Shown here: piece by piece, positions 10,536 through 30,816 of the stretch | Position numbering within the stretch: the stretch's first letter is position 1 | Layout: every line of letters starts with the position of its first letter | NCBI GenBank assembly: GCA_017545525.1 | Contig: JAFWMT010000005.1 | Span: forward strand, 1 to 35,225 | Origin: Candidatus Saccharimonadota bacterium | GTDB taxonomy: Bacteria > Patescibacteriota > Saccharimonadia > Saccharimonadales > Saccharimonadaceae | Length of the DNA: 35,225 nucleotides | Direction of reading: 5' to 3' | The notes under the pieces: model-generated | Database searches by the model: none | What the model was told of the DNA's origin: nothing | The model's input: only the letters and a program-made list of their open reading frames with translations | Translations under genes and position numbers: made by a program

Positions 10536-12836
10536 ATGAGCCAAACCGGTCTTACTGCTAGTCAAGTTAGAGAAAAAATCAAACAGGGAAAGATTAATCA
10601 GGCCCCCTGTAAAAACCAGTCTACCATCTGGGGAATTATTCTGAAAAACTCCCTGACGGTTTTTAATCTCGTCAACCTCATTCTCGCTCTTATGATTATC
10701 TCTGTCGGCTCCTATAAAAACCTGCTATTTGTTCTCATTGCTCTTGCGAATACTCTGATCAGCATCATTAATGAAATTAGAGCGAAAAAAATTGTCGACA
10801 AAATGCGTCTTATCTCTGAACAAAAGCCCACCGTCATTAGAAATGGCAAAACTCTTCAAATCGACCAAGACCAAATTGTCGAAGGCGACCTTCTCATTTT
10901 TAGCCTCGGTGACCAAATTCTCGTCGATAGTAAAATAAGAGAAGGTTCAATCGAGGTCAATGAAGCTTTTATCACCGGTGAACAAGACAATGTTGAAAAA
11001 GCCCAGGGCGACAAGCTCATCTCTGGCTCTTTTGTCGTCTCCGGTACCTGTAAAGCTGAAGCTATTGCAGTCGGTGTGGAGAGTGAACTAAACAAAATTG
11101 AATCGAGTGCCCATACGATTAAAACCGCCAATTCGAAACTATTCACTCTTATGAACCAGATTGTTAAATATATTTCCATCGCCCTTATCCCTATCGGCGC
11201 CCTCATGCTTTGGAGCCGTTTTCGCGTTGGCGATGGCGATACCACCACCGCTGTTACGAGTACTGTTGCGTCTCTTATCAACATGATTCCCGAAGGTCTT
11301 ATTCTCTTAACTAGCTCTGTGCTCGCTCTCGCGACCATTAGATTGAGCAAAAAACAGGTTCTCGTCCAAGATCTCTATTCTGTCGAAACTCTCGCTCGTG
11401 TTGATACTATTGCTCTAGATAAAACCGGCACCCTCACTATCGGCAAAATGACGGTTTATGACTATACTTCCTTGAATAAATCGTTTGAGACCGCTCTAAT
11501 ATCGATTCTAAGCCATCAAACTACCGAAAACGCTACCATAAGCGCTTTGAAGCAAAAGTTTGCGAGAGGTGCCAAAATTAAAGAAATAGAGGGTATTACC
11601 GAAACCATTGATTTTTCCTCCGAGCGCAAACACTCCGGCATCAGGACCAAGAACGCCACTTATCTCCTCGGTGCCGTTGATTTCATCACTGACGATCAAG
11701 ACATCATCAAAAAAGTCCAATCCGCCTCCGCCGGCTACCGCACCTTAGCTATAATAAAGCGCGCTTCGTTCCCGGATGAGCTGCTCGGCTATATCCGTCT
11801 CGAAGACGAAATCCGCCCCGATGCGAAGCAGATCATCGGTTATTTTTACGATAACGACATCGAAGTTAAGATTATCTCCGGCGATGATCTTGAGGCCGTT
11901 ACTTCTATTGCCGCTCGCGTCGGCGTCAAAAATCTCGAAGGCATCAACCTTTCTTCTCTTAAATCCCCCAATTACGAAAAATTAGTCCGACAATACTCGA
12001 TTTTTACGCGCGTCAAACCTGCTGAAAAGAAAAACTTGATTAAAGCCTTGAAAAAACAGGGAAGAACCGTCGCCATGACCGGGGATGGCGTGAACGATAT
12101 TTTGGCCATGAAAGAGGCCGACGTCTCTATCGCGATTGGCGAAGGTTCCGATGCCGCTCGTCGCAGCTCGAAGCTTGTTCTCCTCAATTCCGGCTTTGAA
12201 TCCGTCCCCTCTATTATCGACGAAGGCCGCCAATCTATTAACAATCTCGAACGCTCTACCGCCCTCTTTCTCGCCAAAACCGTCTATGCGAGCATCCTCG
12301 CGGTTATTTTCATCATTCTCCCTGTTAAATATCCCTTTTCTTCGCCCGTTGAGATGTCGCTTCTAAACTTCGCTTGTATCGGCTTCCCGGGCCTCATCCT
12401 CGCACTTGAACATAACACTGAACGCATCAAAAATCGCTTCACCCGTAATATCCTGGAATATTCCGTCCCTGTCGGCCTCACCATCTCTATCTCTATGCTT
12501 ACCTTATCTCTCCTTGCCCATTTCGGCGTTTTCCCGCATTACGACCTCGCTACGACCGCCATTTTCGTCACCTTTACCGTCGATCTCATCTTAATTTATT
12601 GGATTTCGAAACCTTTAAACGCCTTGCGCGCCGGACTTCTCATTACAATTATCGGAATTATGGTAGGCGCCTTCCTTATCCCATTTTTCCACGATTTCTT
12701 CGACTTCGTCTTCTTAACTCCAACCGGCGTTATCACCGCACTCATCGCCATCGCCTCCTCAATTCTTCTCTTCGAAATCCTAAAATTCGTCATGAAAAAA
12801 ATCTCCTCCCGCCTTTTCGACCATGCCGATATTTAA
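10536..12836 (+). CDS. Cation-translocating P-type ATPase, CtpE-like
   Basis: A 766-residue membrane pump. It has an actuator domain with TGEQ at 147-150 (TGES variant), a membrane motif PEGL at 252-255, the phosphorylation site DKTGTLT from Asp295, and the hinge TGDGVND at 515-521. There are two N-terminal membrane helices, two before the P domain and about six after it. PEGL in the fourth helix in place of PEGxP/CPC is typical of the CtpE-like group, in which the mycobacterial member takes up calcium. That makes Ca2+ the best guess, but the metal is inferred. The nucleotide-binding domain is short (SERKHSGI..LLGAVDFI). The gene is convergent with tsaD, and their 3' ends overlap by 4 bp. Confidence 0.92.
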   Translation: MSQTGLTASQVREKIKQGKINQAPCKNQSTIWGIILKNSLTVFNLVNLILALMIISVGSYKNLLFVLIALANTLISIINEIRAKKIVDKMRLISEQKPTVIRNGKTLQIDQDQIVEGDLLIFSLGDQILVDSKIREGSIEVNEAFITGEQDNVEKAQGDKLISGSFVVSGTCKAEAIAVGVESELNKIESSAHTIKTANSKLFTLMNQIVKYISIALIPIGALMLWSRFRVGDGDTTTAVTSTVASLINMIPEGLILLTSSVLALATIRLSKKQVLVQDLYSVETLARVDTIALDKTGTLTIGKMTVYDYTSLNKSFETALISILSHQTTENATISALKQKFARGAKIKEIEGITETIDFSSERKHSGIRTKNATYLLGAVDFITDDQDIIKKVQSASAGYRTLAIIKRASFPDELLGYIRLEDEIRPDAKQIIGYFYDNDIEVKIISGDDLEAVTSIAARVGVKNLEGINLSSLKSPNYEKLVRQYSIFTRVKPAEKKNLIKALKKQGRTVAMTGDGVNDILAMKEADVSIAIGEGSDAARRSSKLVLLNSGFESVPSIIDEGRQSINNLERSTALFLAKTVYASILAVIFIILPVKYPFSSPVEMSLLNFACIGFPGLILALEHNTERIKNRFTRNILEYSVPVGLTISISMLTLSLLAHFGVFPHYDLATTAIFVTFTVDLILIYWISKPLNALRAGLLITIIGIMVGAFLIPFFHDFFDFVFLTPTGVITALIAIASSILLFEILKFVMKKISSRLFDHADI

Positions 12837-13969
12837 TTAATCGAAATTCTCGGATAAATATTCAGAGCGTAAGGGTCAGTCGGCTTTACTCCCGACTGAA
12901 TCTCATAATACGCTGCTGCCGCCACCATCGCCCCATTGTCCCCAGACAGTTTTACATCAGGAAAATATGCCTCAGGCAAAGAATCGCGCAAGGCCTTGTT
13001 CGCAGAAACACCGCCCGCAACAACCAAAGATTTTATATCAGGATATTGCTCCTTCGCCATTTCGAGCTTTTCAACTAAAATGTCTACCGCTGTTTTTTGG
13101 AAAGAAGCCGCAAAGTCCGCCACCTGTTTTGGCGTTAATAGCTCTTTCAATTTATGCGACGGACAAGAAATCGGCACCCCAACCTCTTTCTGCACTGCCC
13201 TTAGCACCGCAGTTTTCAATCCCGAAAACGAAAAGTCTAATGCATTGACTTTTGGATGCGGTAACTTATATTTTTTCGCATCACCAGATAGCGCCGCCTT
13301 CGCTACTGCCGGCCCACCAGGGTAGGGAAGGCCTAGGATCTTCGCTACCTTATCAAAACACTCACCTACCGCATCATCATGCGTCGTCCCAATAATCTCA
13401 AACTGATTATGCCCCGGCATATACAAAATCTGCGTATGCCCCCCTGAAATCACCAGCGCCAGCAAAGGAAATGCTGGGCGATGTTCAGAAAGAGTGTTTC
13501 GAGGGAGCTCTCGGAGGCTGCTGCCGAGAGCGCAGGACGCCGAGCCCCGTGAAGACGGGCGCGAGGACGTCCGGTCCCGAGAAACACTATTCTGAACGTC
13601 GGCAAGTAGCCAATTCGCATACACATGTGACTTAAGATGATGGACAGCATATAACGGTTTATCATGCAAAATCGCCAGCGTCCTCGCTGTTAAAGTCCCA
13701 ATCAGAAGCGACCCCAAAAGCCCCGGCGCATGCGTTACCGCAATCGCGTCAATCTCATCCCAACTACACCCCGCATCAGTTAGCGCCTTATGTACTACCG
13801 GCATCATCACCTCTAGATGACTTCTCGCCGCCACCTCTGGAATTACGCCCCCATATTCCTTAAAAATATCAATCTGCGAAACTACTACATTCGACAAAAT
13901 CTTCACGCCGTCTTCTACTACCGCCGCCGCCGTCTCATCACAACTCGTCTCAATCCCTAAAATTTTCAT
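12833..13969 (-). CDS. tsaD: tRNA threonylcarbamoyladenosine transferase TsaD, with a ~38-aa insertion
   Basis: TsaD (Kae1/YgjD) transfers threonylcarbamoyl to A37 of ANN-decoding tRNAs in the cytoplasm. The 378-residue protein shows MKILGIETSCDETAAA, the metal ligands His111 and His115 (VHHLKSH), LVISGGHTQ, YPGGPAVAKAA, FSFSGLKTAV, VAGGVSANKALR and LSGDNGAMVAAA. TsaD is usually about 335-345 aa. The surplus is one block at residues about 126-163, rich in Ser and Arg (SRDRTSSRPSSRGSASC..), encoded by a GC-rich palindromic element at 13483-13597. The frame is kept, so the protein is probably functional with a surface loop between the metal ligands and SGGHT. The ATG at 13969 is chosen because MKILGIETS is the family start and TATAAT lies 6 nt upstream. 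Confidence 0.96.
   Translation of the reverse strand: MKILGIETSCDETAAAVVEDGVKILSNVVVSQIDIFKEYGGVIPEVAARSHLEVMMPVVHKALTDAGCSWDEIDAIAVTHAPGLLGSLLIGTLTARTLAILHDKPLYAVHHLKSHVYANWLLADVQNSVSRDRTSSRPSSRGSASCALGSSLRELPRNTLSEHRPAFPLLALVISGGHTQILYMPGHNQFEIIGTTHDDAVGECFDKVAKILGLPYPGGPAVAKAALSGDAKKYKLPHPKVNALDFSFSGLKTAVLRAVQKEVGVPISCPSHKLKELLTPKQVADFAASFQKTAVDILVEKLEMAKEQYPDIKSLVVAGGVSANKALRDSLPEAYFPDVKLSGDNGAMVAAAAYYEIQSGVKPTDPYALNIYPRISIN
13483..13597. repeat. Palindromic element A, inserted in frame in tsaD
   Basis: A GC-rich block of 115 bp in an AT-richer gene. The outer inverted arms are GTTCAGAA..GTGTTTC (13483-13500) and GAAACACT..TTCTGAAC (13581-13597), with a 1-nt indel between them. The core runs from CGAGGG to CCCGAG (13500-13581). 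It contains a perfect 8-bp hairpin GCTCTCGG/CCGAGAGC (13507-13514, 13524-13531) and CCCGT-GAAG-ACGGG (13547-13560). Positions 13542-13564 match element B (21878-21900) exactly over 23 bp. The element has no stop codon in the tsaD frame. Confidence 0.85.
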
Positions 13970-13975
13970 ATTAAA

Positions 13976-13981
13976 ATTATA
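13976..13981 (-). promoter_or_regulatory. Extended -10 of leaderless tsaD
   Basis: The minus strand reads TGGTATAAT, 6 nt, ATG (13969). Confidence 0.65.
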
Positions 13982-14012
13982 CCATAAAACCCCTGAAATA
14001 ACCATGAAAATA

Positions 14013-15310: not shown

Positions 15311-15345
15311 GTTTTAAGCAATTAAATTATATCACCACATGAATA

Positions 15346-15780
15346 TTACTCGTGGTGGTATTTTCCGCCATGGGCAATTTCTTGCGCCCGATACGTCTGT
15401 TCAGCTACTATAATTCGGGCTAATTTATGGGGAAACACTAACTTTGAAAAACTCCATACGAAATCCGCCTTTTCTCTTACCAAGTCCGAAAACCCATACG
15501 CCCCACCAATTAAAATCACCACCTCTTTATTCTCAGAAAATGCCCGTTCTAGCTTTTTAGAATATTCATCTGATGATATATTTTCTCCTCGCTCATCACA
15601 ACAAATTACCAACTCACGCGCTTTTTCAAATGGCCATTCTGCCAGTTTCTTCTCCAATTTTTCTTCTTCGTAAAACTCCCAAACTATCTCGTACGGTTTT
15701 CTCAATCGCTTCGCATACTCTGAAATTATCTCTAATTCCGCCCCTGCATTTTTCTTTCCCCCTGCAATAATCCTTATCAT
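15346..15780 (-). CDS. rlmH: 23S rRNA (pseudouridine1915-N3)-methyltransferase RlmH
   Basis: RlmH is a SPOUT methyltransferase that modifies helix 69 of 23S rRNA on assembled ribosomes. The 144-residue protein has the family start MIRIIAGGKKN, a middle CDERGE..SSDEYSKKLE, the knot motif VVILIGGAYGFSD, FPHKLARIIVAEQTYRA, and the characteristic C-terminus GGKYHHE. The family is about 155 aa. An in-frame ATG at 15804 would add eight residues and lies 1 nt after the stop of the upstream gene, so coupled initiation there is a real alternative. The family alignment favours 15780, although no Shine-Dalgarno site precedes either start. Confidence 0.95.
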   Translation of the reverse strand: MIRIIAGGKKNAGAELEIISEYAKRLRKPYEIVWEFYEEEKLEKKLAEWPFEKARELVICCDERGENISSDEYSKKLERAFSENKEVVILIGGAYGFSDLVREKADFVWSFSKLVFPHKLARIIVAEQTYRAQEIAHGGKYHHE

Positions 15781-15805
15781 ATTACTTAAACCGAAATTAA
15801 TCATC

Positions 15806-17394: not shown

Positions 17395-17484
17395 TCATAA
17401 TCACCAACCTTTCTAAAAGATATAAAAGTACAAGCCTTAGATTAGGCTCGCCTGAATATATTATAACATCTTTATACGTTTTTA

Positions 17485-17561
17485 ACAACAAAAATGGCTA
17501 GGCTGGCAGGATTCGCACCGAGCGTTAGCGAGGTCCGAATCCTCATTTTTTGAATTTTTGT
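17485..17561. repeat. Short palindromic insertion carrying a duplicate of the tRNA-Gln 3' end (element C)
   Basis: Positions 17485-17515 repeat 17562-17593 (the tRNA-Gln 3' end plus its downstream ACAACAAA), identical apart from one A in a run, at a 77-bp offset. Inside the unit an inverted repeat AGGATTCG (17508-17515) / CGAATCCT (17536-17543), extended by ACC/GGT, encloses GAGCGTTAGCGA. The left arm is the tRNA T-arm sequence itself. The copied tRNA piece covers only the CCA end, the acceptor 3' strand and part of the T arm, so it is not a second tRNA gene. The apical TAGCGAGG also occurs in element B. Confidence 0.75.
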
Positions 17562-17572
17562 ACAACAAAAAA

Positions 17573-17647
17573 TGGCTAGGCTGGCAGGATTCGAACCTGC
17601 GAATGACGGGACCAAAACCCGGTGCCTTACCACTTGGCGACAGCCTA
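17573..17647 (-). tRNA. tRNA-Gln (anticodon TTG), CCA encoded
   Basis: A minus-strand cloverleaf. The acceptor is TAGGCTG/CAGCCTA, the D stem GCC/GGC, the anticodon stem CCGGG/CCCGT (outermost pair mismatched) around TTTTGGT (anticodon TTG, reading CAA), and the T arm GCAGG-TTCGAAT-CCTGC. G73 and encoded CCA follow, then six T residues. An extended -10 TGGTAAAAT (17659-17664) lies 11 nt upstream, giving a leader of about 4 nt. Confidence 0.95.
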
Positions 17648-21597: not shown

Positions 21598-22246
21598 GGG
21601 ATATCATAAAATTGAAGGTGCTAGCCGCGCCTTCAATTTTGATTTTCGTGGTAAAACCGTTCTCGATATTGGTTCTTCTACCGGCGGTTTCACCGAATTC
21701 GCGTTAAATCACGGCGCGAAAAAAGTCATCGCTATCGAAAAGGGAACGAACCAAATGCAAAAACCCCTCCGTTTCGACCCCCATATCGATCTTCACGAAA
21801 AAACTGACATTTTTGAGGTTAAAATAATAGGATTACCTTCCGAGGGGATTCCGCAGTTGCTGCGAGGACATAGCGAGGAGCCCCGTGAAGACGGGCGCGA
21901 CGAGCGACCCGAGGAAGGTAATCCTATCATTTTAGATACAACTATCGATGTAGTTTTAGCCGACGTATCTTTTATTAGTCTGACTAAAATATTGGCATAC
22001 GCTAAACAGAACCTATCGAACCAAAATACCGATTTTTTGGTCATGTTAAAGCCTCAATTCGAAGCCAAACCCGAAGACCTGCATAAAGGCGTTGTTAAAA
22101 ACGAAAAAATCCGCCGCGAAATAATTAAAAATTTCGAATTTTGGCTTAAACAAAACGACTTTTTCATCATCAAAAAACACGACAACACTCTCACTGGCAA
22201 AACCGGTAATCGCGAACGTTTCTACTGGTTGAGAAAAGCAAAATAA
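21572..22246 (+). CDS. TlyA-like FtsJ-fold rRNA methyltransferase lacking the S4 domain, with a ~36-aa insertion
   Basis: TlyA proteins 2'-O-methylate 16S/23S rRNA. This 224-residue protein begins almost at the methyltransferase domain: KSRGYHKIEGASRAF, the SAM loop VLDIGSSTGGFTEFAL, AKKVIAIEKGTNQM, VVLADVSFISLTK, VMLKPQFEA and a C-terminal ERFYWL. The usual N-terminal S4 RNA-binding domain of about 60 residues is absent. Residues about 85-120 (IIGLPSEGIPQLLRGH..EEPREDGRDERPEEG) are not family sequence; they are encoded by palindromic element B (21823-21931) and keep the frame. The ATG at 21572 lies inside efp (26-nt overlap), and SRGYHK starts the family match 7 codons later. A TTG at 21548 is an alternative start. 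Likely cytoplasmic and translationally coupled to efp. Confidence 0.82.
   Translation: MPIANVKSRGYHKIEGASRAFNFDFRGKTVLDIGSSTGGFTEFALNHGAKKVIAIEKGTNQMQKPLRFDPHIDLHEKTDIFEVKIIGLPSEGIPQLLRGHSEEPREDGRDERPEEGNPIILDTTIDVVLADVSFISLTKILAYAKQNLSNQNTDFLVMLKPQFEAKPEDLHKGVVKNEKIRREIIKNFEFWLKQNDFFIIKKHDNTLTGKTGNRERFYWLRKAK
21823..21931. repeat. Palindromic element B, inserted in frame in the tlyA-like gene
   Basis: A 109-bp element. The outer inverted arms AATAATAGGATTACCTTCC (21823-21841) and GGAAGGTAATCCTATCATT (21913-21931) pair at 18 of 19 positions. The core runs from CGAGGG to CCCGAG (21841-21913), contains CGCAG-TTG-CTGCG, and shares 21878-21900 exactly with element A. The core has the same plus-strand orientation as A, but because the host genes face opposite ways the two copies are read on opposite strands relative to the core. 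Both are free of stops. Confidence 0.87.
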
Positions 22247-29917: not shown

Positions 29918-29951
29918 AATAAAAATACTCCCGCGAGGGAGTATTTTTATT
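29918..29951. terminator. Bidirectional terminator between pilC and the first pilin gene
   Basis: A perfect 15-bp inverted repeat (AATAAAAATACTCCC / GGGAGTATTTTTATT) with a GCGA loop gives T runs on both strands. It therefore ends pilC and the convergent pilin gene. Confidence 0.92.
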
Positions 29952-30775: not shown

Positions 30776-30798
30776 AAAAAAATACTCCCTCGCGGGAG
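30776..30798 (-). terminator. Terminator of the second pilin gene
   Basis: On the minus strand CTCCC-GCGA-GGGAG is followed by TA and a run of seven T residues. The stem and loop are the same as in the terminator at 29918-29951. The spacer 30628-30775 otherwise holds only the pilin leader and AT-rich short hairpins. Confidence 0.85.
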
Positions 30799-30816
30799 CA
30801 CTTTAGAAATTAAATC

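Follow-up and report, generated by a model that had tools for sequence, protein, structure and literature searches.

The window analysed in this study is a 35,225-nt stretch of contig JAFWMT010000005.1 from a Candidatus Saccharimonadota bacterium, and it carries two copies of a palindromic element, one inside a tlyA-like methyltransferase gene and the other inside tsaD (Table 1). The initial annotation had described the tlyA copy as a block at 21823-21931 with arms matching at 18 of 19 positions. These arms were recovered at 21823-21841 and 21913-21931, and the true extent of the inverted repeat is wider (21820-21841 / 21913-21934). An exact 23-mer reported as shared, GAGCCCCGTGAAGACGGGCGCGA, was found in both copies on the + strand (21878-21900 and 13542-13564), and the core edges CGAGGG and CCCGAG are present in the two copies alike. 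The host genes run in opposite directions, as had been noted; tlyA is read from the + strand and tsaD from the - strand, and both frames are open through the insert. Three long inverted repeats of this kind were found in the window versus none in 10 Markov-shuffled windows, and 80 related loci (1.37 Mb) contained 102 versus 9 in Markov controls. The inverted repeats of the window are far beyond chance.

Table 1 Positions of the two element copies and of their host genes in the window
Feature	Position	Strand	Basis
tsaD host gene, core read antisense; annotated start may be further in	12833-14005	-	family models
tsaD copy, whole palindrome (arms 13479-13500 / 13581-13601)	13479-13601	+	inverted-repeat search, covariance model
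tsaD copy, covariance-model span	13495-13586	+	
tsaD copy, conserved hairpin	13544-13562	+	
tlyA host gene, TlyA/FtsJ-type methyltransferase, insert forms a loop	21548-22246, start uncertain	+	family models
tlyA copy, whole inverted repeat	21820-21934	+	inverted-repeat search
tlyA copy, outer stem 5' arm, private to locus	21820-21841	+	inverted repeat and stem alignment
tlyA copy, core between arms	21842-21912	+	covariance-model span 21836-21918
tlyA copy, GA/GA internal loop	21842-21843 / 21911-21912	+	
tlyA copy, GGG/CCC pairing	21844-21846 / 21908-21910	+	
tlyA copy, conserved hairpin GCCCCGT-GAAG-ACGGGCGC, GA flanking each side	21880-21898	+	
tlyA copy, outer stem 3' arm	21913-21934	+	inverted repeat and stem alignment

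The window also holds repeats of other kinds. An inverted repeat of 21-24 nt with a 213-nt spacer (15324-15584) overlaps the 3' half of an rlmH-like ORF (15346-15804, - strand), and a 213-nt-spacer inverted repeat occurs at the same spacing in relatives L069 (7880-8134), L089 (7708-7966) and L102 (8062-8322). A 41-nt direct repeat (85%; 17479-17519 / 17557-17597) adjoins and overlaps a tRNA gene (17576-17647, - strand) and resembles a partial tRNA copy. Near-identical short palindromes, AAAAATACTCCCGCGAGGGAGTATTTT, lie near pilin-like genes at 29921-29947 and 30778-30804 and are terminator-like.

The element spans ~105-175 nt and occurs in several sequence families, and stable folds are predicted for it. 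From the outside inwards, the core consists of a closing stem of ~6 bp, a GA/GA internal loop, GGG/CCC pairing, a variable hairpin and a conserved hairpin, which reads GCCCCGT-GAAG-ACGGGCGC family-wide and has GA on either side. In alignment A4 (97 distinct rows), 97.4% of the stem cells were paired versus 77.7% in shuffles, and changes on both sides were found for 16 of 17 pairs; this alignment had been fitted to the covariance model and is therefore biased towards the modelled structure. Membership of a known RNA family was ruled out, given that the tlyA copy had no match among the Rfam covariance models at E values up to 5; at gathering thresholds, Rfam returned only tRNAs for the whole window.

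The genome-wide search proposed in the initial annotation yielded 14 copies in the 0.72-Mb genome of origin with a covariance model built from six copies, and 16 copies with a second model built from 105 copies. The tlyA and tsaD blocks are one repeated element, located in frame in unrelated genes and readable from either strand, as the annotation had supposed. Its alternative, that only two copies exist as the product of a single conversion event, is ruled out by these 14-16 copies and by copies throughout the genus. Relatives found via an FtsK anchor are Saccharibacteria, mostly from the ruminant gut, including Candidatus Nanosyncoccus alces. Within the genus (Nanosyncoccus-like Saccharibacteria), the six-copy model detected copies in 58 of 60 sampled genomes, with up to 30 per genome. 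In an order-wide sample of 247 genomes, the 105-copy model found the element in only 3 of 132 genera, all belonging to one family; outside its own genus, only two other genera of that family carry it. Most of the compared relatives are metagenome assemblies, and several of the statistics reported here count species as independent. No report of such elements in Saccharibacteria was found in the open-licence papers searched.

Residence in host genes was evaluated in a broad sample comprising all copies of the genome of origin, the FtsK-anchored loci and the loci of high-scoring copies from other genomes. Of the 74 copies in this sample, 70 are located in frame within ORFs of 100 codons or more (44 sense, 26 antisense), and the copies do not routinely break genes, contrary to a possibility raised at the outset. 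The host genes in the genome of origin encode or comprise an RsuA-family pseudouridine synthase, tlyA, recX, a NifS/IscS-type desulfurase, tsaD, obgE (twice), der, lepA, ychF, polA, argS, leuS and truB, which we take to be core genes. The insertion points are variable loops, of which TsaD has three, TlyA one and ObgE two, and the same loops are occupied by different subfamilies in different species. An AlphaFold2 model of TlyA based on a 42-sequence alignment gave pLDDT values of 44-60 for the insert, while most of the remainder scored above 86.

In each of the 69 distinct in-gene copies examined, the host frame continues without a stop. The absence of stops in both directions had been attributed to selection for coding compatibility in either orientation, and this is not supported by the stop counts in the frames that the hosts do not use. 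The five unused frames of the 69 distinct copies contain 2.29% stop codons versus 1.97% in dinucleotide shuffles, and 2.67 frames per copy are open versus 2.80 expected. Since both measures match the shuffles, two-way openness is merely a consequence of high GC, and only the frame in use is kept open.

The orientation of the element is set by the chromosome strand and not by the gene. Adjacent copies on one contig had the same orientation in 95 of 120 cases, and within 20-kb stretches the element strand was the G-poor strand for 72 of 90 copies, where GC skew serves only as a proxy for replication direction. After collapsing to host sites, 36 of 41 had the element on the G-poor strand (p = 8e-7). 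For genes on the G-rich strand, the element is antisense in 9 of 13 cases, and its orientation relative to the gene depends on the strand (Fisher p = 2e-5). Orientation was constant across species at 13 of the 18 multi-copy sites. In the window, GC skew is negative throughout and both copies are on the + strand; the fixed orientation relative to the chromosome strand thereby accounts for the opposite readings, with tlyA reading the core sense and tsaD reading it antisense. Stem mismatches on the element strand were G.T rather than A.C in a ratio of 42:23 for sense copies and 21:8 for antisense copies, counts that are modest and retain shared ancestry. Folding of the host mRNA should reverse the ratio in antisense copies, so the excess of G.T in these copies argues against host mRNA as the folded molecule. 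The mismatch bias and the strand polarity favour folded single-stranded DNA, or RNA read from the element strand, over host mRNA.

The moving unit is the ~85-nt core, while the outer stem of ~20 bp stays private to the locus. Copies at different loci were 0.91 identical over the core, 0.73-0.88 identical over the outermost closing-stem pairs and ~0.3-0.45 identical just outside, and arm identity was ~0.32 among copies whose cores were at least 0.88 identical. In genome G003, two copies located 2.9 kb apart have cores that are 100% identical and stems that are unrelated. The nearest core was found at another locus of the same genome 32 times versus 10.1 expected. The private arms are nonetheless complementary, and the stem is extended in 68 of 73 copies (median 17 bp) versus 0.4% of flank-swapped controls. 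In three sets of orthologous inserts at obgE site 1, variable outer pairs had changed on both sides in 4 of 4, 6 of 9 and 10 of 12 cases; cores have spread, and the stems that surround them co-evolve. Bulges cluster in the 5' arm after pairs 9-14 and in the 3' arm after pairs 6-7, as placed by a custom dynamic-programming alignment, whose positions are uncertain by one or two within purine runs. Stem mismatches increase beyond about pair 20.

Comparison of filled and empty sites provided information on the origin of the stem. In tsaD of relative L093, 120 nt comprising both arms and the core are absent from relative L089 (89% identity across the alignable DNA), and neither arm matches the empty L089 gene. 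One tsaD loop is short in 36 genes (15-18 nt) and longer in 7 others (54-138 nt). At obgE site 1, the conserved host coding sequence for ...LADL forms the right arm, and the left arm is an inverted copy thereof; empty obgE genes have ~5-6 codons at this site (VVYK-DGEVL-ADL), into which the palindrome would not fit. At the other sites, the host-like arm lies on either side or, at most of them, is not identifiable; obgE site 1 alone would suggest a fixed side for the host arm, which the tlyA and ATPase sites do not bear out. The arrangement at obgE site 1 supports fold-back copying of the host flank there, and the same process may have operated at the other sites. In the four empty loops tested, hairpins were not in excess over the rest of the gene. 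Short sites in L056 tsaD and L066 tlyA carry small palindromes without a core.

Other inserts were also observed in these loops. A different insert occupies obgE site 1 of L142, where a 25-nt unit encoding VSAGPVE lies between 20-nt direct repeats of host sequence, and the relative L147 carries two occurrences of this peptide at its obgE site 2. Further insert families, several of them long-armed, share the same loops of tsaD; one is marked by SSAGLEFSSTSYAG... (L055, L067, L070 and L115), another by CRERSGALAQVL... (L058 and L082), and the family of L066 and L091 is marked by SDTLKGARPSLRSSE / SDTLRAAQAKSSRS.

Candidate mobilisers and carriers were also sought. The Y1/RAYT transposase (PF01797) occurs in 2 of the 60 genus genomes and is absent from the genome of origin, which excludes it as the mobiliser. 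Reverse transcriptase (RVT_1) was detected in 40 of the 60 genus genomes, where it perhaps belongs to diversity-generating retroelements, and not in the genome of origin. It is also absent from G000, G003, G035 and G054, in which 13-24 copies were detected at the six-copy-model thresholds, and these element-rich genomes rule it out as an obligate mobiliser. The search for these two enzymes in the 60 genus genomes thus revealed no mobilising enzyme. No carrier was found either; the exact element pattern was not matched in viral contigs, and a search with one query copy yielded a single 30-bp match in the phage set and no plasmid match.

We consider these sequences to be genus-specific, mobile, protein-coding palindromic elements whose core spreads as folded single-stranded DNA and whose stem is built at the landing site, and we assign this reading a probability of about 0.6. 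The structured core of ~85 nt would be the spreading unit and would act as a folded single DNA strand exposed at the replication fork, with a landing polarity fixed relative to that fork. The outer stem of ~20 bp would be made at the landing site, at least partly via fold-back copying of the host flank, and this proposed origin would explain why it is private to the locus and yet complementary. Stem complementarity may later be upheld by the same fold-back template switching, by recognition of shape (pairing and bulge positions), or by both; simple fold-back copying would not be expected to place bulges at preferred positions. Insertions that break core genes would be lost, and in-frame, stop-free insertions in surface loops would stay and would probably be translated as disordered loops. 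A more specific version is held only tentatively, namely that the transposable element is the folded ~85-nt single-stranded core alone, which at each site forms a new shape-constrained ~20-bp stem with extrahelical bases from the sequence present there, on one fork strand and without conserved ends.

The main rival to a fork-coupled element is core conversion between old insertions, which could yield identical cores in different stems. Differences between the stems would confine the conversion tracts to the core, and template switching or selection would keep the stems. The constancy of orientation across species at multi-copy sites while the core subfamily changes, together with the frequent occurrence of nearest cores in the same genome, agrees with this explanation. 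We nevertheless regard it as rather unlikely, considering that several loops show clear differences between empty and filled states, so that new insertion with a stem also occurs, and that conversion alone does not create the stem. A structured RNA within the host mRNA, with a cis function or a slowing or pausing effect on translation and a stem selected as RNA, would fit the strong covariation and the stable predicted folds. It is improbable because 26 of 70 in-gene copies lie antisense to the mRNA, with G.T again outnumbering A.C on the element strand, and because hosts and sites differ between species.

Still less probable is insertion into pre-existing host palindromes, with the stem older than the insertion. 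The coreless palindromes of L056 tsaD and L066 tlyA would suit such a history and may equally be scars, and the lack of hairpin excess at empty sites in the four loops tested argues against it. Bulges that occur in both arms of a long stem recall a spliced element, in which the insert would be removed from the mRNA in the manner of archaeal bulge-helix-bulge introns or bypassing elements; this explanation is scarcely credible given a host frame that is open in all 69 distinct in-gene copies, which splicing would not require.

The closest described kind, by likeness of description, is the Rickettsia palindromic element (RPE), and we do not assign the element to any of the kinds compared here. 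RPEs and the Wolbachia palindromic elements are palindromic repeats of ~100-150 bp in several families, located in ORFs with the frame intact in small host-dependent bacteria (PMC10969869, PMC3767692). The Saccharibacteria element is likewise palindromic and of similar size, falls into several families and, in 70 of 74 copies, is in frame in ORFs. It differs in occurring in another phylum, in its locus-private stem, in a core formed by covarying hairpins and in an orientation set by the chromosome strand. The repeats of RPEs reportedly become less identical over time, according to a passage in PMC6649704 that cites this, whereas the arms of the Saccharibacteria element co-evolve. Integron attC sites are imperfect palindromes with little sequence conservation that are recognised by shape via extrahelical bases, and their folding is favoured on one replication strand (PMC8946536). 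The variable stem sequence, the preferred bulge positions and the strand polarity of the Saccharibacteria element recall these sites. However, no cassette arrays were seen, copies are scattered in unrelated genes, and the core is branched, whereas attC has an unpaired central spacer and a variable loop; inspection by eye revealed neither an attC-like central spacer nor a conserved triplet. REP/RAYT systems are also short, structured, present in many copies and consistent with a single-stranded DNA logic, but REPs lie between genes, the Saccharibacteria copies lie within them, and the Y1 transposase is missing in 58 of 60 genomes. Long inverted repeats with concerted arms occur in coding sequences of Nematomorpha mitochondria, for which template switching has been proposed (PMC6649704). 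The shared mobile core of the Saccharibacteria element has no described counterpart in those palindromes. MITE copies share conserved terminal repeats with direct target duplications on their flanks, in contrast to the private outer repeats observed here (arm identity ~0.32 at core identity of at least 0.88). MITEs are short non-autonomous inverted-repeat mobile elements and are in frame at times (PMC10969869).

The present results describe a large, active set of elements in tiny host-dependent bacteria of another phylum. To our knowledge, protein-coding palindromic elements are known chiefly from Rickettsia and Wolbachia, and their movement is unexplained. The copy number in Saccharibacteria suffices to distinguish the moving part, the core, from the part made at the site, the stem, thereby making concerted stem evolution and fork polarity visible. 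How coding palindromic elements move and why genes tolerate them can now be tested directly. The element explains why TsaD, ObgE, TlyA, LepA and other core proteins carry loop insertions that differ among species, and is therefore relevant to annotation, phylogenetics and structure work on Saccharibacteria. If true, a single-stranded core with a site-built stem would represent a mode of insertion without conserved ends.
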